A DNA stretch of 64,000 nt from Clostridia bacterium (GTDB lineage Bacteria; Bacillota; Peptococcia; DRI-13; SM3-B62): contig JAHDSQ010000002.1 in the NCBI GenBank assembly GCA_018432615.1, positions 157,054 through 221,053 of the forward strand, given 5' to 3'. The notes beneath the pieces are model-generated. The model was not told the origin of the DNA. It was given only the letters and a program-made list of their open reading frames with translations, and searched no databases. Every line of letters begins with the position of its first letter. The first letter of the stretch is position 1. This document shows positions 26,215 to 58,640 of the stretch, piece by piece. Made by a program: the position numbers and the translations under genes.

Positions 26215-27759
26215 TTATTGCCTTTCTTGCAGCAATTCAGGTTGGGCTCTGACTATTTTGTTCAAGGCATTAATATAGGCCCTTACACTGGATTCAATAA
26301 TATCTACGCTCAAACCGCGGCCCATAAATGTCTTGCCGTCAATGGCCACCCTTACTACTACTTCACCCTGTGCATCTTTCCCGTGGGTTACTGCATTAAT
26401 ATTGTATGATTCCAGTCTGGCCGGCAGTTTAACTATTTTGTTGATGGCAGCGTAGGAAGCCTCGATAGGACCGTCAGCGCAAGCCGCTTCCTCAACGGGC
26501 TTGCCTTGCACAAGCATTCCGATGGTTGAAGTTGCGGTAATATTCGTCCCCAGGGTGACACGCATATGATTTAACTCGTAAACCTGTTCACTATCTGCAA
26601 ACATCTCATTATCAACAAGGGTAATTAAATCCTCGTCCAGTATTTCACTTTTCCTATCGGCAAGCGCCTTGAATTCATTAAAAATCTTTTCTAAAATTTC
26701 TTCATTCAAATTGAATCCAAGTTTCTCTAACTGCAATTTAAAGGCATGGCGTCCGGAGTGTTTGCCCAGTACCAGCTTATTACTGCTTATCCCAACCATT
26801 TCCGGATTCATTATCTCATAAGTCGTTCTTTCTTTAATAACTCCATCCTGATGGATCCCGGCTTCGTGAGCAAAAGCATTTTTCCCGACGATAGCCTTGT
26901 TGTGTTGGACACGCATACCGGTCAATCTACTGACCATGGTACTTGTCCGGTAAAGCTCACGAGTATTGATGCTTGTCGAAAAACCGAGATAATTTCTTCT
27001 GGTGTACAACGCCATTACAACCTCCTCTAAAGAGGCATTCCCGGCCCTTTCGCCGATTCCGTTGACAGCCACCTCAACCTGCTGAGCTCCGTTGCGCACA
27101 GCCGCCAAGGAATTAGCCACCGCCAAACCCAGATCATTGTGACAATGAACACTTATCACAGCTTTATCAATATTCGGAACTCCCTCCCTGATTGCCTTGA
27201 CAAACTCACCAAACTCCCAGGGAGTTGCATAGCCCACAGTGTCGGGAATATTTATCACATTGGCACCGGCATCAATGGCGAGGGTAAAGACTTCGCATAA
27301 AAACGGGATTTCACTTCTGAAAGCGTCTTCTGCCGAGAATTCCACATCATCGACCAAGCTTTTTGCCATTTTAACATACTTGGCGACCATTTCTTTCACT
27401 TCTTCTTCTGTCTTGCACAGTTTCTTGGTCATGTGTATTTTCGAAGTAGCCACAAAAGTGTGTATCCTGGGTCTTTCAGCATGCTTGACGGCCTCATAGG
27501 CACTTTTGATATCAGCCTCCCCGGTACGTGCTAATCCGGCTATAATAGGTCCTTTGACCTCTTTGGCGATTCGGCTTACCGAGGAGAAATCTCCCGGCGA
27601 GGCAATGGGAAAGCCTGCTTCAATCACGTCAACACCCAAACGTGCCAACTGTTGAGCAATCGCCAGTTTTTCATCACTATTCAGGCTAACTCCCGGTGAC
27701 TGCTCTCCATCGCGCAGAGTTGTGTCAAAAATGTATATTCTCTTTCCGTTTTGAACCAT
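26215..27759 (-). CDS. leuA: 2-Isopropylmalate synthase
   Basis: A 514-residue enzyme joining acetyl-CoA to 2-oxoisovalerate, the first committed step of leucine synthesis. The TIM barrel carries DTTLRDGEQSPG, the VHCHNDLGLAVANS metal motif and GIGERAGNASLEE. A C-terminal regulatory domain (about 390-514) for leucine feedback is present and complete. The ATG has GGGAAGGGAG seven or so bases upstream. It lies 19 bp after ilvB2. Confidence 0.97.
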   Translation of the reverse strand: MVQNGKRIYIFDTTLRDGEQSPGVSLNSDEKLAIAQQLARLGVDVIEAGFPIASPGDFSSVSRIAKEVKGPIIAGLARTGEADIKSAYEAVKHAERPRIHTFVATSKIHMTKKLCKTEEEVKEMVAKYVKMAKSLVDDVEFSAEDAFRSEIPFLCEVFTLAIDAGANVINIPDTVGYATPWEFGEFVKAIREGVPNIDKAVISVHCHNDLGLAVANSLAAVRNGAQQVEVAVNGIGERAGNASLEEVVMALYTRRNYLGFSTSINTRELYRTSTMVSRLTGMRVQHNKAIVGKNAFAHEAGIHQDGVIKERTTYEIMNPEMVGISSNKLVLGKHSGRHAFKLQLEKLGFNLNEEILEKIFNEFKALADRKSEILDEDLITLVDNEMFADSEQVYELNHMRVTLGTNITATSTIGMLVQGKPVEEAACADGPIEASYAAINKIVKLPARLESYNINAVTHGKDAQGEVVVRVAIDGKTFMGRGLSVDIIESSVRAYINALNKIVRAQPELLQERQ

Positions 27760-27778: not shown

Positions 27779-29479
27779 TCACGTTCCTACCATCTCATCC
27801 AAGCCGGAGCCGGTGAGAACTATAGGATAAACGTTTTCTCTTGCAGGTACAACAACTTCCATAATAGCCATTCCTCGATGCTGAACAAACTGTTCCATCT
27901 TATAAGCAAGCTCTTGCCTCTTTGCTACCCTGAGACTCAGTGCCCCAAAAGCCAAGGCTAAATGATGAAAATCAGGGCTTTTTGAAAATTCCGTAGACGA
28001 GTACCTGCCTTGACAATAGTGGTCTTGTAATTGTTTTACCATTCCCAGCGTTTGATTGTTAATGAGAATGATCTTAAGTGGCAAACCCTGCTCCAATGCG
28101 GTTCCCAATTCAGGCATCCCCATTTGAAAACTTCCATCCCCTGTTATAACGTAAACGTTACAGTCAGGGCAAGCCACCTGTGCGCCAACCGCCGCGGGTA
28201 TACCATACCCCATGGTCCCCAGTCCACCTGACGATATGAATTTCCCCGGCAGGTTAGTTCTTATTTTTTGTGCGGCCCAAATCTGGTGTTGGCCGACATC
28301 GGTTGTCACGATACAATCATCTGTTAATCTTTGATTGAGGTTTTCTATTACGTCTGCTGCTGAAATGGCATCATCAGTTACGCCTTCCTCATCTTTCCCC
28401 GAGCCGACGACCGGCCTATCCTTCGCCCTATATTTTGCCTTGATTTCAGCAATTTCTGTCCTCCATGGCTGGTTTTCTTTAGCCTGCAGTCTTTTATTCA
28501 ACTGCCCTAAAACCACTTTGAGGTCTCCCACCAACGGGACATCGACACGCATATTCTTGCCTATCTCAGCGGCATCGATATCTATGTGAACAATTTTAGC
28601 ATGGGGAGCGAATTTGGCAGTAGCACCCGTAACCCTATCACCAAACCTCATCCCCAAGGCAATAAAGAGATCGCAAGCCTGTACGGCCATATTTGCGGCT
28701 GCCAGTCCGTATGTTCCCAACATTCCCAGCGCCAGCGGATGATCCTGAGAGATACTGCCTCTTCCCATCATAGTAGTCGTAACGGGTATCCCGGCATTCT
28801 CAACCATATATAATAATTCTTCCGTAGCTCTGGCGGAATTCACACCGCCACCGGCACAAATCAAGGGCCTTTCTGCCTTCTCTATCAACTCAATCACTTG
28901 CTTGATTTGTCTGATATGTCCGTTAATGTTCGGTTTATAGCCCCTCAAGTCGACCTTCTTGCAGTCGATGTTCTCAGCCATGGCTGCGGTGACATCTTGA
29001 GGTATATCGATCAATACGGGTCCGGGCCGCCCGCTTTGTGCGATATAAAAGGCTTCCTTGATAATACGAGGAATATCCCCCGCCTCCTGTACAAGGTAGT
29101 TATGCTTGACAATCGGATCCGTTATCCCGGTGATGTCGACCTCCTGGAAGGCATCTGTTCCAACCATGGAAGTCGCCACCTGCCCTGTTATAGCAACAAT
29201 CGGGATCGAATCCATATATGCGGTAGCGATACCAGTGACAAGGTTGGTGGCCCCCGGCCCCGAAGTGGCCATACAAACACCTACCTTGCCACTGGCCCTG
29301 GCATAACCGTTTGCTGCGTGGGCTGCTCCCTGCTCGTGTCTGACCAGTATGGTTCTTATCTCGGTCGCGTCCTTTAAGGCATCAAATATTTTCAGGGCCG
29401 CACCCCCTGGGTAACCGAAGATAACCCTGACGTTTTCTTTTCTTAAGCTTTCAATTAGGATCTCCGCCCCCAGTTGCAT
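27779..29479 (-). CDS. ilvB: Acetolactate synthase large subunit, paralogue 2
   Basis: A 566-residue TPP/FAD enzyme. The catalytic Glu49 is in LVRHEQGAAHA and the TPP motif is GDGSFQMGMPELGT. All three domains are present. The stretch corresponding to the substrate-specificity tryptophan (E. coli AHAS II Trp464) reads GMVKQLQ here, with Leu484 in place of Trp, unlike paralogue 1. That change is known to weaken preference for 2-oxobutyrate, so this copy may make acetolactate for valine/leucine rather than isoleucine. The ATG at 29479 follows GGAGGTGTTACTT; an upstream TTG lies inside that ribosome site. It is located between ilvC and leuA. Confidence 0.93.
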   Translation of the reverse strand: MQLGAEILIESLRKENVRVIFGYPGGAALKIFDALKDATEIRTILVRHEQGAAHAANGYARASGKVGVCMATSGPGATNLVTGIATAYMDSIPIVAITGQVATSMVGTDAFQEVDITGITDPIVKHNYLVQEAGDIPRIIKEAFYIAQSGRPGPVLIDIPQDVTAAMAENIDCKKVDLRGYKPNINGHIRQIKQVIELIEKAERPLICAGGGVNSARATEELLYMVENAGIPVTTTMMGRGSISQDHPLALGMLGTYGLAAANMAVQACDLFIALGMRFGDRVTGATAKFAPHAKIVHIDIDAAEIGKNMRVDVPLVGDLKVVLGQLNKRLQAKENQPWRTEIAEIKAKYRAKDRPVVGSGKDEEGVTDDAISAADVIENLNQRLTDDCIVTTDVGQHQIWAAQKIRTNLPGKFISSGGLGTMGYGIPAAVGAQVACPDCNVYVITGDGSFQMGMPELGTALEQGLPLKIILINNQTLGMVKQLQDHYCQGRYSSTEFSKSPDFHHLALAFGALSLRVAKRQELAYKMEQFVQHRGMAIMEVVVPARENVYPIVLTGSGLDEMVGT

Positions 29480-29500
29480 AAGTAACACCTCCAAATTAAT

Positions 29501-30499
29501 CTACATCTCTTTTTTCAACCACGGCATCTTATTTCTCAGTTCTTTTCCTACTACCTCTACCTGGTGCTGTTCATCAAGCCTCTTAATGGCGTTAAAACGC
29601 GGTCTTCCTGTTTGGTTCTCCGAAATCCAATCCTTAGCAAAAGTCCCGTCTTGGATTTCCTTGAGAATCTGCCGCATCTCTGCTCTTGTTTCTTCCGTAA
29701 TCAGGCGTCTGCCGCTGACCATATCACCATACTCGGCCGTATCGCTGATCGAATACCGCATCCCGGCAATCCCGTGTTCATAAATCAAATCGATGATAAG
29801 TTTCAACTCATGACAGCATTCAAAGTAGGCAGATTCCGGCTGATATCCGGCCCCAACCAAGGTATCAAAGCCCGCCCTGATCAGTTCTGTCAAACCGCCG
29901 CATAGTACACACTGCTCCCCGAAAAGATCGGTTTCGGTTTCCTCCTTAAAAGTAGTCATCAGTGTTCCCGCCCGGGTGCAACCAATACCCTTGGCATAAG
30001 CTAAAGCAGTGTCCATGGCCTTGCCGGTGGCATCCTGATAAACCGCAACTAATCCCGGTATCCCCGTTCCTTCCAAGTAAAGCCTTCTGACAAGGTGTCC
30101 CGGCCCTTTTGGAGCAACCATAAAGACATCTATATCTTCCCTAGGTTTGATCCTGCCGAAATGAATATTGAAACCATGCGAAAATGCAATTGCATTGCCC
30201 GGCTTAAGTCCCGGTAGTATCTCACCATAATAAACATCCGCATGATTTTCATCAGGCAACAAAATCTGCACAACATCGGCCATTTCTGATGCTTCTGCTA
30301 CCGTATACACCTTAAAGCCGTTTTTCTCTGCCTTCGCCCAAGACGAACCTCCCTTGCGCAGACCGATAATAACATCGACCCCACTGTCCTTTAGGTTTTG
30401 TGCCTGGGAATGACCTTGACTCCCGTAACCGATAACTGCTACTTTCTTGCCCTCCAAATAACTTAAATTCGCATCCTGATCATAAAACATTTTTGCCAC
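29501..30499 (-). CDS. ilvC: Ketol-acid reductoisomerase (class I)
   Basis: A 332-residue NAD(P)H-dependent enzyme converting acetolactate or acetohydroxybutyrate to dihydroxy acids. The Rossmann motif is [15 protein letters not shown] (residues about 20-34), followed by the cofactor loop with Arg/Ser (GLRKGGSS). The knotted C-terminal domain has the metal residues around [12 protein letters not shown] and the E..YECCHELK-type helix. The GTG start has GGGAGG upstream. It lies between ilvN and ilvB2 in the operon. Confidence 0.97.
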
Positions 30500-30548: not shown

Positions 30549-31028
30549 TTACTTTTGTCCCCTAACTATCGACACCCTTCCCGTTCTGACTAACTCCATA
30601 ATACCAAAGGGCTGTAAGGATTTAATGATAGCCTGTATTTTCGCATCATCACCTGTTGCTTCGACAATCAGCGAACGCCGTCCAATGTCTACAATACGGC
30701 ACCGAAAAATCTCCACAATCTGCATTATTTCCTGGCGAACTGCAATATCTGCATTCACCTTCAGCAAGAGTAGCTGCCTGTCGACCGTCTCTTCTTCTGT
30801 AATATCATTGACCTTTATTACCTCGACCTGTTTATTCAACTGCTTGCTGACTTGCTCAATAATCTTGGCATCGCCCTCAACAACAAGGGTTATACGCGAG
30901 ACGGAAGAATCATCCGTTTCACCGACCGCCAGGCTTTCAATATTGTAACCGCGGCGGGAAAAAAGTCCAGCCACATGCGATAGGACACCGGGTCTGTTTT
31001 CAACTAATACGGCTAATGTGTGCTTCAC
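30549..31028 (-). CDS. ilvN: Acetolactate synthase regulatory small subunit
   Basis: A 159-residue subunit with an N-terminal ACT domain (TLAVLVENRPGVLSHVAGLFSRRGYNI) and the ALS_ss C-domain (VRQEIMQIVEIFRCRIVDIG). It confers valine feedback on the large subunit. The GTG at 31026-31028 is chosen, with GGAGGTGG just upstream; a longer reading lies inside ilvB1 and lacks similarity. It overlaps ilvB1 by 29 bp, so these two are probably the native pair. One small subunit serves two large subunits in this operon. Confidence 0.94.
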   Translation of the reverse strand: MKHTLAVLVENRPGVLSHVAGLFSRRGYNIESLAVGETDDSSVSRITLVVEGDAKIIEQVSKQLNKQVEVIKVNDITEEETVDRQLLLLKVNADIAVRQEIMQIVEIFRCRIVDIGRRSLIVEATGDDAKIQAIIKSLQPFGIMELVRTGRVSIVRGQK

Positions 31029-32703
31029 CTTTCCACCTCCCCAGCATTTCATTGAGCTTTCCTCCCGGAGGGATAATCGGTAACACATTCTCTCCCTGGC
31101 AGACCGCACAATCAACAATGACAGGTCCGGGCAGCCTAAAGGCTTCGGCGACAATCTCGCTTATATCGTCTGTTTCCCCTGCCCGCAATGCTTTGATACC
31201 GTAGGCATTTGCAAGCCTCACAAAGTCAGGATTACTGTCAAATAACGTCGAAGCGTAGTGCCCTTTAAAAAAGAGTTCCTGCCACTGCCGAACCATTCCC
31301 AAACAGGAATTATTCAAAATGAACACCTTGAGCGGCAGTTGATGGTTGGCAATAGTCGCTAACTCTTGAATGTTCATTTGGATACTTCCGTCTCCGGTAA
31401 ATAGAGCCACAGCTTCATTTGTTTTGCCAAAGGCTGCTCCTATGGCGGCAGGGAGACCAAAACCCATTGTCCCTAAGCCCCCGGAAGTCACAAAGTTTCG
31501 CGTTTTTCCTATCGGATAAAACTGAGCAACAAACATTTGATGCTGACCTACATCAGTCACAACCACGACTTTATCGCCGACCTGCCTCGCAACCTCTTCA
31601 ATGACGGTTTGTGGTTTTAGTCCACCCTCTTTTTCGTAAAGAAGAGGATACTTTTCCTTGAAGATCGTTACCTCCTGCAACCATTCCTTTGTTGCAAATT
31701 CTAATCCTTTTTTCTTTAAACGACTTAACATCTCAGTTAGAAACTTGGCAACATCGCAAACAACCGGTATGTCCGCAACTACATTCTTTGACAATTCCGC
31801 CGGATCAATGTCCACATGAATGATTGTGGTCTCCGGCAGGAAGTTCTCCGGCTTTCCGGTAATCCTGTCGCTAAACCTTACCCCCAGCGCGATAAGTACA
31901 TCAGAAGAGTTCAGAGTAAGATTAGCGGCCGGCATACCGTGCATCCCCACCATTCCCAGACAGTTTTCGGCTGTATCCGGGAAGGCACCTTTACCCATAA
32001 GCGTAGTTACCACAGGCATCTTTGTATAATTGACAAACTCCCGTATAATTTCACTAGCCTGCCCGGAAACAACGCCTCCGCCTACCATGACCAATGGCCT
32101 TTTTGCCTCATGCAAAGCAGCTACAACCTTATCAAGCTGCTCCGATAAACCATTTTTTAAAGGAACCTTGCGGGAATATTTTTTCTCAAGCCCTACCTGA
32201 GAATCCACTGTCCCGGCAAAGATGTCCTTGGGCATATCGATCAATACCGGACCCGGACGTCCTGTTGTAGCTACATTCCAAGCTTCTTCCAAAACTGACG
32301 GTAATTCATCCATCTTTTTTACCATATAGCTGTGCTTAGTAATCGGCATCGTTATCCCAATGATATCCGCTTCCTGAAAAGCATCTCTTCCTATACTATC
32401 GAGATTAACCTGTCCCGTAACAGCAATGAGCGGAACGGAATCAAGATAAGCATTGGCAATACCCGTAACTAAATTGGTAGCACCCGGCCCGGATGTTGCA
32501 AAGCACACACCCGGCTTGCCGGTCACTCGTGCGTATCCGTCTGCCGCATGAACCGCCCCTTGCTCGTGGCGGGTAAGGATGTGTTTAAGACCGGAACGTC
32601 CTAAAACGTCATAAAGAAAGATAACAGATCCACCTGGATAACCAAAAATATACTCAACACCTTTTTTTTCAAGGAAACTTACTAGGTATTCTGCACCATT
32701 CAT
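31000..32703 (-). CDS. ilvB: Acetolactate synthase large subunit, paralogue 1
   Basis: A 567-residue TPP/FAD enzyme. The catalytic Glu47 is in LTRHEQGAVHAADGYAR, and the TPP motif GDGSIQMNIQELAT is followed by NNSCLGMVRQWQ. That stretch keeps the Trp (Trp474) associated with preference for 2-oxobutyrate over pyruvate, so this copy has the standard biosynthetic AHAS profile serving isoleucine and valine. GGAGGTGTAGAA precedes the ATG. It is second in the operon after ilvD and overlaps ilvN. Confidence 0.96.
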   Translation of the reverse strand: MNGAEYLVSFLEKKGVEYIFGYPGGSVIFLYDVLGRSGLKHILTRHEQGAVHAADGYARVTGKPGVCFATSGPGATNLVTGIANAYLDSVPLIAVTGQVNLDSIGRDAFQEADIIGITMPITKHSYMVKKMDELPSVLEEAWNVATTGRPGPVLIDMPKDIFAGTVDSQVGLEKKYSRKVPLKNGLSEQLDKVVAALHEAKRPLVMVGGGVVSGQASEIIREFVNYTKMPVVTTLMGKGAFPDTAENCLGMVGMHGMPAANLTLNSSDVLIALGVRFSDRITGKPENFLPETTIIHVDIDPAELSKNVVADIPVVCDVAKFLTEMLSRLKKKGLEFATKEWLQEVTIFKEKYPLLYEKEGGLKPQTVIEEVARQVGDKVVVVTDVGQHQMFVAQFYPIGKTRNFVTSGGLGTMGFGLPAAIGAAFGKTNEAVALFTGDGSIQMNIQELATIANHQLPLKVFILNNSCLGMVRQWQELFFKGHYASTLFDSNPDFVRLANAYGIKALRAGETDDISEIVAEAFRLPGPVIVDCAVCQGENVLPIIPPGGKLNEMLGRWKGEAHISRIS

Positions 32704-32724: not shown

Positions 32725-34389
32725 TTATTCCGAAGAGTAAACGGCTCCTTTGTTGGCTGAACTAACCATCCCCGCATAGCGGGCAATATAACCTCCCAAA
32801 CCTCTGTCCGGTGGCCCCGTCCATTCCTTCTTGCGCCGTTTAAGCTCTTCTTCTTCCACTAGTAAATCGAGTCGCCGGTTAGGTATATCTATACTAATCA
32901 TATCGCCCTCTTTAATTAGGGCTATCACCCCCCCTGCCGCAGCTTCGGGTGACACGTGTCCAATGGACGCGCCTCTGGTCGCTCCTGAAAATCTCCCGTC
33001 GGTGATCAATGCTACACTTGAATCCAATCCCATTCCTGCCAGGATCGAGGTCGGGGTAAGCATTTCACGCATTCCGGGACCTCCTTTCGGCCCTTCGTAA
33101 CGGATAACCAGTACATCTCCGGCTTTAACCTCACCTGCCAGAATGGCCTCCGATACTTCTTCCTCGCTGTCGTACACACGAGCAGGCCCTTTATGCACCA
33201 TCATTCCTTCAGCAACGGCACCTTGCTTGACAACGGCACCCTCTTCTGCCACGTTGCCTCTCAAAACCGCAATGCCGCCGTCTTTACGGTAAGCGGTCTC
33301 TAAGGTACGTACAATTTCTCCCTTAGTGTTCTTCGCCTTGTCCAAAAGCTCCTTGAGCCTATCAGCCCCTACACATTTAACATCCTTATCGATCAAGCCC
33401 GCCTTATCAAGCTCCTTCATAACCGTCATAATTCCGCCGACCTCATCCAGGTCTTCAATAAAGGAATTACCGGCAGGACTGAGTTTGCAAAGCTGTGGCG
33501 TATTACGGCTTATCTTGTCGATCATATCTATATCGAGGTTGACACCGGCCTCGTGAGCAATTGCTGTTAAATGCAAAACGGTATTAGTAGAGCATCCAAG
33601 CGCCATATCCGTTTTCAGGGCATTTTCAAACGCTTTTTTCGTCATAATATCACTCGGTTTCAAGTCCTTCGCCAAAAGCTCCATAATCCGCTCTCCGGCA
33701 TTCTTGGCAAGACGGCGACGCGCCGCAGTCACTGCCAAAATCGTACCATTACCGGGAAGTCCCATTCCCAATGCTTCGGTAAGACAGTTCATGGAATTGG
33801 CGGTGTACATCCCTGAGCATGAACCGCATCCCGGGCAAGCATTCTCTTCCATTTCCCAGATTTCCTGATCGGACATCTTCCCATTGCTATGCTTCCCTAC
33901 TGCCTCAAAAACATCGCTTAATGCTATTCTCTCCCCGTTAACTTTCCCAGCCTGCATGGGACCGCCACTGACAAAAATGCTGGGCAAATTCAATCTGGCA
34001 GCCGCCATCAGCATTCCCGGAATTATTTTATCGCAATTAGTGACAAATACCAGGGCATCGAAGGAATGTGCCCTGACCATCACTTCAATAGAATCGGCAA
34101 TCAACTCACGACTGGCCAGGGAATATTTCATTCCCACATGGTTCATCGCAATTCCATCGCACACCGCAATAACGGGAAATTCAAAGGGAACCCCTCCCCC
34201 ATACCGAACCCCTGCCTTTACGGCCTCGGTTATTTCCTTAAGATGAATGTGTCCGGGCACAATGTCGTTATAGGGGTTTACTACCCCTATAAAGGGACGC
34301 TTCATCTCCGCTTCAGTTATTCCAAGGGCTTTTAATAACGAACGATGGGGCGCCTTGGTAACACCCTTTTTAATAGTGTCACTCCTCAT
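32725..34389 (-). CDS. ilvD: Dihydroxy-acid dehydratase
   Basis: A 554-residue iron-sulfur dehydratase producing 2-oxoisovalerate and 2-oxo-3-methylvalerate. The cluster cysteines lie in [12 protein letters not shown] and [16 protein letters not shown], and the [16 protein letters not shown] motif is near residue 465. The ATG at 34387-34389 follows GGAGGTAGGAG; a longer reading (from 34431) includes that ribosome site and is unlikely. First gene of the ilv-leu-vor operon, preceded by a 34611-34390 leader with a terminator hairpin. Confidence 0.96.
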
Positions 34390-34454
34390 AACTCCTACCT
34401 CCATTTTTTTTATATACCTGTTATTTGACACGGCAGTTTCGGAAATACACTTAT

Positions 34455-34498: not shown

Positions 34499-34617
34499 TG
34501 CCGTCTATTGTTGTTTAAATTGCCTGATCTGATGAATTTCCCTTGCTGCTAATTCGGCCTGCTTTGTATAACAGTTTTAAAATGTACCGCTTATTATATA
34601 TCAGGTATTTAAATACC

Positions 34618-34647
34618 ATGATACTCCGCTGTTAGGATAACTGTCAA
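34618..34647 (-). promoter_or_regulatory. Proximal promoter of the ilv-leu operon
   Basis: Read leftward, TTGACA (34642-34647) and TATCAT (34618-34623) are 18 bp apart. The predicted start is near 34611, giving a leader of about 220 nt that includes the terminator at 34455-34498. Confidence 0.6.
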
Positions 34648-34733: not shown

Positions 34734-34765
34734 ATGTTTAAACAATAAGAAAGGATGAAAGCTAT

Positions 34766-35050
34766 ATGGAAATCACCATATCACAAAAGGCCTCGAATAA
34801 AATCCTCGAACAAATCGGCGAAACACCTTCTAACTACGCCCGTATTACCTTCAAAGGTCACGGCTGAGGCGGTCCCCGCTTGGGCTTTGCTCTGGATGAG
34901 CAAAAAACCGATAATGACAATGAGTATCAGGTCAAAAACATTAACATTCTCATCGACAAGAAATTGGCCAAAGGTCTCAGGAGCATAGAAGTCGATTACC
35001 GCAATTCCTTGTTTGGAAAAGGCTTTATAGTTAACTCCCTAAGCAACTAG
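34766..35050 (+). CDS. HesB/IscA-like selenoprotein with in-frame UGA (Sec34)
   Basis: Reading the TGA at 34865-34867 as selenocysteine gives a 94-residue protein: MEITISQKASNKILEQIG, then TFKGHG-Sec-GGPRLGFALDE. It ends RNSLFGKGFIV before TAG. The context G-[Cys/Sec]-GGPRLG-ALDE is that of HesB-like proteins of the IscA fold, in which the marked residue is normally Cys. The frame stays open and protein-like on both sides of the TGA, and a SECIS-like hairpin starts about 20 bases after it. The ATG at 34766 has AAAGGA upstream. The ATG at 34755 is out of frame. A role in Fe-S or redox chemistry is inferred from family. The gene lies antisense within the span between the T-box and ilvD. Confidence 0.82.
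34883..34909 (+). promoter_or_regulatory. SECIS-like hairpin for selenocysteine insertion
   Basis: TTTGCTC (34886-34892) pairs perfectly with GAGCAAA (34898-34904) around the five-base loop TGGAT; outer GG/CC (34883-34884 with 34908-34909) can extend it. The loop begins 25 bases after the TGA and contains the two guanines expected of bacterial SECIS elements that bind SelB. Spacing and loop agree with known bacterial SECIS rules. Confidence 0.72.
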
Positions 35051-35089
35051 CCTCCCGGATATAAAGAAAACTAGGGCTTCCGATAGTAT

Positions 35090-35398
35090 AAAAAATCCTC
35101 TCGTCCCAGACAAACTTCTTCTTTGTCAGGGACGAGAGGAATCTCGCGGTACCACCCAGATTATCCTCATCAGGCCAAAAGCCTTGAGAATCACCTTCAT
35201 TAAGTATATTAACGGCTACCACCGGTCCATCCTACTTATGCTCCAGCAAGTTCGGACGAACAGCTCCGGGACGAGTACACTTAATCTTGTGTGCCGGCTT
35301 CCACCTGCCCCGGCTCTCTGTAACACTTCGGTATAAGCATTTCCCATCATCACCACTATATTTATTATCCACTCTTTAAGCTGCTAAAAAATATTATT
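35090..35398 (-). ncRNA. T-box leader, leucine specifier (CUC), with terminator
   Basis: Read leftward, this is a full T-box riboswitch. It has a GATGATGGGA kink region, AGAGAG and GGTGGAAGCC in distal stem I, and a stem I lower helix GGGA/TCCC. There is an upper CTTA/TAAG helix, then the T-box core GGGTGGTACCGCG (35142-35154). Pairing GGGA with TCCC and CTTA with TAAG leaves a specifier loop in which the codon position is CTC (35273-35275), that is leucine. The TGGT bulge fits a tRNA ending ACCA, as expected for tRNA-Leu. A long terminator (CCTCTCGTCCC with its complement, then TTTTTT, 35090-35139) follows. The only downstream leftward genes are the ilv-leu operon, 700 bp away. Confidence 0.93.
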
Positions 35399-35404
35399 GT
35401 TAAC

Positions 35405-35433
35405 AGTATAGTGGTGTTAGGTCATGTTGTCAA
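35405..35433 (-). promoter_or_regulatory. Promoter of the T-box leader
   Basis: Read leftward, TTGACA (35428-35433) and TATACT (35405-35410) are separated by 17 bp, a near-consensus sigma-A promoter. Transcription would start near 35398, just upstream of the first T-box helices. It lies 25 bp downstream of the DUF378 gene end. Confidence 0.8.
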
Positions 35434-58449: not shown

Positions 58450-58640
58450 GGCGCACTTCCTCCTACAGGCAGGTCTCCTGACTCGCAGTTCATCCTCCTC
58501 TTCTGCCTTCCCATGTTTACGCACAGTGGCTTTTCAACCGAAGATTTGTCACCGCTCACAGTGGTGGGTCCGTACCGGATTTTAACCGGTTTCCCTATTC
58601 TCTCGTTAACAAGAGCACCTGTAAGTCCGATATTCAATTG
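58450..58640 (-). ncRNA. Cobalamin (adenosylcobalamin) riboswitch
   Basis: The RNA read leftward contains AGTCAGGAGACCTGCCTGT (58465-58483), the canonical B12 box. Upstream are the core segments GGGAAACCGGT and AATCCGGTACGGACCCACCACTGT. The order of core, J-elements and B12 box matches the class I cobalamin riboswitch. When B12 is plentiful it should favour the downstream terminator and shut off the transport and synthesis operon. Confidence 0.95.

Follow-up and report, generated by a model that had tools for sequence, protein, structure and literature searches.

The window, by which we mean the whole 64,000-nucleotide stretch of DNA analyzed here, carries on its plus strand a short gene for a HesB/IscA-like selenoprotein, flanked on the minus strand by a T-box leader and an operon for branched-chain amino acid synthesis (Table 1). 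Its frame runs from ATG to a TAG stop at 35048-35050 and is broken by a single TGA, at the coordinates given in a preliminary description of this DNA. Translation of the frame with the TGA read through gives a product of 94 residues in which selenocysteine (Sec, U34) stands within KGHG-U-GGPRLG, and residues U34-G-G-P form the UxGP motif at the conserved Cys position. The preliminary description had also held that a standard open reading frame search overlooks the gene, and indeed the standard list for this locus contains only an out-of-frame entry at 34755-34988 (77 aa). On the minus strand the order is T-box, then the selenoprotein gene in antisense, then ilvD, ilvB, ilvN, ilvC, a second ilvB-like gene, and a leuA-like gene, names assigned by homology and by what is established about the pathway. 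Since the T-box lies upstream and ilvD downstream, both on the minus strand, the ilv leader contains the selenoprotein gene in antisense. Elsewhere in the window, there is a cobalamin riboswitch (58451-58637, minus strand, 111.9 bits), and the genes at about 41 to 45 kb resemble a cluster for cobalamin biosynthesis.

Table 1. Features of the selenoprotein locus and the neighboring ilv operon (window coordinates)
Feature	Position	Strand	Remarks
HesB/IscA-like selenoprotein gene (predicted)	34766-35050	+	94 aa, Sec at residue 34, Cys-free
In-frame UGA, predicted to be decoded as Sec	34865-34867	+	Aligned with the Cys conserved in IscA-type proteins
Putative ribosome-binding site AAAGGAT	34750-34756 (approximate)	+	From sequence; same in congener
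Bacterial SECIS hairpin, stem UUUGCUC/GAGCAAA, loop UGGAU	34886-34904	+	Conserved in position and loop, with stem covariation; not present in Cys forms
T-box leader, CUC (Leu) at specifier position	35125-35359	-	Rfam RF00230, 113.1 bits; convergent with selenoprotein gene
T-box intrinsic terminator and U-tract	35089-35140	-	About 40 nt from selenoprotein stop codon
Promoter-like site for T-box transcript, TTGACA-17-TATACT	35405-35433	-	11/12
Second promoter-like site, for ilvD, TTGACA-18-TATCAT	34618-34647	-	11/12; between selenoprotein gene and ilvD
ilvD	32725-34431 (start probably 34395)	-	First gene of branched-chain amino acid operon; homology
ilvB	31000-32703	-	3' of ilvD in operon
ilvN	30549-31154	-	ilv operon
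ilvC	29501-30499	-	ilv operon
Second ilvB-like gene	27779-29494	-	ilv operon
leuA-like gene	26215-27759	-	ilv operon

We compared the product, with Cys put at the UGA, with curated family models. It passed Pfam Fe-S_biosyn (PF01521; 29.9 bits, cut-off 26.3), and its top NCBIfam model was NF038090 (IscA_HesB_Se, the Sec-type IscA/HesB subfamily; 1.6e-17), in agreement with the earlier reading of both sides of the UGA as one family member. The curated NCBIfam cut-offs were missed (TIGR01911, 46.3 versus 66.35 bits; NF038090, 63.6 versus 85 bits). In a sample of 398 genomes of the phylum searched with stops read through, TIGR01911 matched in 81; none of the 398, undoubted Sec forms included, reached its cut-off, which therefore shuts out most of the clade.

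The 7-bp hairpin with a GG-containing loop that had been placed 18 to 21 bases past the UGA was borne out: its stem begins 18 nt 3' of the UGA (with the U of UGA numbered 1, stem positions are 22-28 and 34-40, and loop positions are 29-33). The hairpin thus lies just 3' of the UGA and has G in its apical loop, as SECIS elements of HesB-like selenoproteins do. A 48-nt fold at this site was more stable than shuffled sequences (z = -2.25), and 1.4% of synonymous recodings folded as well as the window hairpin, which was better than 98.6% of them. Across 63 distinct Sec sequences, 94% of stem cells were paired at the exact window offset, compared with 84% in column shuffles (maximum, 86%), 20 to 44% in slid registers, and 40% in Cys forms. 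The loop read UGGAN in 59 of the 63, and the stem pairs 24-38, 25-37, 26-36, and 28-34 each occurred as more than one standard type (GC/AU/UA exchange), a covariation partly coupled to amino acid changes, since the SECIS region also codes. An Rfam scan of the SECIS region and the window hesB-ilvD gap returned only an irrelevant sub-threshold match. Judged by the UGA found in every homologue of the class and by the stem pairing of the Sec forms at this exact offset compared with Cys forms and slid registers, the hairpin is not a product of chance.

The host genome (3.16 Mb in 70 contigs, estimated to be 100% complete) was then searched with profiles for the Sec machinery, the absence of which would have pointed to a pseudogene. 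All four components that go with the HesB-like selenoprotein family were present: selA on contig C42 (587 bits), selB on C19 (387 bits), selC, the gene for tRNA-Sec, directly adjoining selB and with anticodon UCA (ARAGORN tca), and selD on C8 (413 bits). The selD gene has an in-frame TGA of its own near its start (L012:1531-1533), which makes it a selenoprotein gene itself. A second above-cut-off match to RF01852 (C19:1087-1172) was rejected as a tRNA-Sec, ARAGORN calling it tRNA-Ser. SelB and tRNA-Sec would decode the UGA at 34865 as Sec, guided by the hairpin.

Next, we looked at what occupies the UGA position in homologues. The preliminary description had matched it to the conserved Cys of HesB-like proteins, and the aligned position held Sec in 75 and Cys in 23 of 98 homologous loci, with no other residue at any of them (the 98 extracted loci represent 96 distinct ones, two having been fetched twice; 68 Sec and 19 Cys calls were made by script and 11 by eye). 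Within the class, 8 of 46 genomes carry the gene, all with UGA at the site. The protein of the congener (G001) is 96% identical to that of the window, and the six more distant class homologues are 34 to 42% identical; four of these are only 34 to 36% identical, yet they keep the UGA. Over the 285 bp, the congener differs from the window by five silent codons, three conservative replacements (I/V, I/V, and R/K), and one stop-to-stop change. A scan of genome contigs with the single protein matched nothing but the congener and a Cys protein from an alphaproteobacterium.

These results indicate that the locus is almost certainly a genuine HesB-like selenoprotein gene. The UGA and the SECIS being conserved in eight genomes, a sequencing error was ruled out, as was a pseudogene. 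It is highly improbable that a former Cys gene was broken here by a change of TGC to TGA: such a reading would fit the stop codon that the frame has under the standard code and the missing C-terminal Cys tail, but the same UGA and hairpin position recur in class homologues at 34 to 96% identity, substitutions are conservative on both sides of the UGA, and the genome has the full Sec machinery. A frameshift hiding a Cys tail was likewise rejected; the 3' end of the congener gene is identical except for the stop codon (TAG/TAA), and the other frames, judged by eye, stop at once.

HesB-like selenoproteins have been known since at least 2006 (PMC1794560), and UxGP is their motif (PMC13188914). The family being established, the window protein adds another member to it, and a claim of novelty for it is correspondingly weaker. 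A HesB-like protein of Methanococcus maripaludis was labelled with 75Se, and a disruption mutant still fixed nitrogen, the latter an unpublished observation; both are cited in PMC11097638. Like the members described by TIGR01911 and NF038090, the window protein has UGA at the family site with a SECIS directly 3' of it, a UGGP motif, and an IscA-type fold, and its host genome has the Sec trait; it differs from them in being Cys-free, in scoring below the curated cut-offs, and in lying antisense in an ilv leader.

An AlphaFold model built with 44 homologues (pLDDT, 90.8) had HI1723, IscA, and SufA as its best solved matches (Foldseek E down to 4e-6; TM by query, 0.68 to 0.76), and the predicted fold is of the IscA type. 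The window protein contains no Cys, and the same holds for its congener. Cys occurs at or near the C terminus in 71 of the 75 Sec loci, often as SCC, SSC, or CxxC, a regularity that rests on these loci, no published definition having been found to contain it; many Cys forms bear the CGC of true carriers. Only four Sec loci have no C-terminal Cys, the window and its congener included, and L040 and L121 are likewise without Cys after the Sec. Losing the C-terminal Cys could mean a weakened function, yet the frame and the SECIS are intact in two species.

An ordinary A-type Fe-S carrier (IscA, SufA, or ErpA) with Sec in place of the first Cys ligand would share this fold and the place of the Sec, and the product of the neighboring ilvD is an Fe-S dehydratase. 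We nonetheless consider such a carrier unlikely. The three-Cys ligand set (C...CGC) of A-type carriers is absent here, the C-terminal CGC of carrier-type Cys homologues being missing, and the dedicated A-type carrier family models all scored below their cut-offs. Moreover, the first ilv gene next to the selenoprotein gene is ilvB rather than ilvD in two gene-bearing genomes (G009 and G010). Profile searches of the window's own genome found no NifU_N/IscU-type scaffold, no second PF01521 match, and one SufB/D-type core. With zero Cys and the C-terminal Cys cluster gone, canonical Fe-S carriage is disfavored. As read from the gene, the selenol of Sec34 is the only chalcogen side chain for metal binding or thiol-type redox. 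Rather than a canonical Fe-S scaffold, we tentatively propose a selenolate protein for redox or metal binding that depends on a partner: Sec34 would act as the metal or redox group in a small IscA-fold protein, whose site would be completed either by a second protein or by a small thiol. The complete absence of Cys strengthens the suggestion, made in the preliminary description, of a redox or metal chemistry distinct from that of Fe-S carriers, which we continue to infer.

We also evaluated the surroundings of the gene across the class. The succession of T-box, antisense hesB, and ilv genes was found in all eight gene-bearing genomes, which represent five families. At all eight loci, CUC (Leu) stands at the T-box specifier position (assigned by position in the Rfam alignment and checked by eye), and each has an 11/12 promoter-like site for the T-box at a comparable distance. 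The distance from T-box to operon is 562 to 1528 nt with the selenoprotein gene; in genomes without it, the T-box lies about 105 (G004), 74 (G005), 97 (G008), 246 (G012), or 335 nt (G011) from ilvD or ilvB. In G007, also without the gene, the gap is 808 nt and filled with repeats (about five direct-repeat copies of roughly 120 nt or more each between T-box and ilvB, L138:2200-2900, with no HesB gene). In the other gene-less class members examined, no T-box motif was found in the stretch fetched. Two genomes (G002 and G003) have an extra 103-aa open reading frame on the ilv strand between the selenoprotein gene and ilvD (L126:7032-7343 and L127:7134-7445, both minus strand).

The conserved layout is, as an arrangement, that of a noncontiguous operon (PMC7154746) or of an antisense-acting riboswitch (PMC9943018). 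In the Staphylococcus aureus noncontiguous operon menE-menC-MW1733-ytkD-MW1731 (PMC7154746), as in our locus judged by layout, an opposite-strand gene lies inside what would be a single transcription unit; here, unlike there, the nested gene specifies a selenoprotein and follows a T-box in the 5' leader. In the antisense-acting riboswitches of ubiG-mccBA of Clostridium acetobutylicum and pocR of Listeria (PMC9943018), the switch likewise lies 3' of a gene and is aimed into it, so that read-through would be antisense; our locus differs in having a T-box with a Leu codon and in that read-through would also lead on to the operon which the switch itself controls. The survey of antisense riboswitches showed no enrichment of T-boxes (107 of 15,851; PMC9943018), and a literature search joining T-box riboswitches and selenoproteins found nothing relevant.

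Some of the leaders hold a second element. In G011, a T-box and then a ykkC-type element precede ilvD (L132:3588-3723, plus strand; Guanidine-I model, 40.9 bits, below the 63-bit threshold); in G013, such an element occupies part of the gap between the selenoprotein gene and ilvD (L130:5980-6084, minus strand; 39.7 bits, sub-threshold); and in G002 and G003 (L126 and L127), sequence similar to it precedes ilvD. No second element is recognizable in the window. We regard the ykkC-type element as a probable ppGpp- or PRPP-type relative that forms a tandem with the Leu T-box. Tandem leaders of T-box(Leu) and ppGpp riboswitch are known (PMC9481103), and G011 resembles them; in contrast to these, an antisense selenoprotein gene lies between the elements in G013 and, by sequence, in G002 and G003. 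It thus seems that a tandem leader is interrupted by the selenoprotein gene.

Since the gene is antisense in a T-box-controlled leader, read-through at the T-box would cross it. When leucine is short, the T-box would read through, polymerase heading for ilv would traverse the selenoprotein gene in the antisense direction, and HesB synthesis would fall; when leucine is plentiful, the T-box would terminate and HesB would be made. Conversely, the selenoprotein mRNA, when expressed, could dampen the ilv transcript, and branched-chain amino acid synthesis would thereby be linked to selenium or redox status. Such functional cross-regulation, with the selenoprotein gene and ilv forming a noncontiguous operon under a Leu-specific T-box, is doubtful; the layout itself is conserved, and from it we infer any regulatory effect. 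We lean instead towards inherited synteny of no regulatory meaning, with a second promoter freeing ilvD from the T-box transcript. Gene order is also well conserved in these genomes upstream of the T-box, so plain inheritance may account for the position; the eight genomes are related and do not represent eight independent events; and a T-box near hesB was found in none of 20 loci searched outside the class. Furthermore, five of the eight loci, the window included, have an 11/12 promoter-like site between the gene and ilvD, the site being weak or missing in the others. Against inheritance alone, G009, G010, and G013 have no strong second site (part of the G010 gap is masked), which leaves the T-box promoter as their only strong ilv candidate, and gene-less genomes in the family of G009 and G010 have the T-box 74 to 105 nt from ilvB. 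In the window, a near-perfect palindrome, ATCAtGGTATTTAAATACCtGAT (about 34600-34625, minus strand), overlaps the -10 of the second ilvD promoter-like site; it is kept in the congener with one change and is a possible operator.

The selenoprotein gene was recovered although standard annotation overlooks it, and it provides a clean case for the widespread HesB-like family. Its Cys-free form suggests that the function common to the family can be achieved by the selenol with no help from Cys residues of the same chain. Should the antisense layout prove functional, a selenoprotein would here be under the control of an amino-acid-sensing RNA switch.
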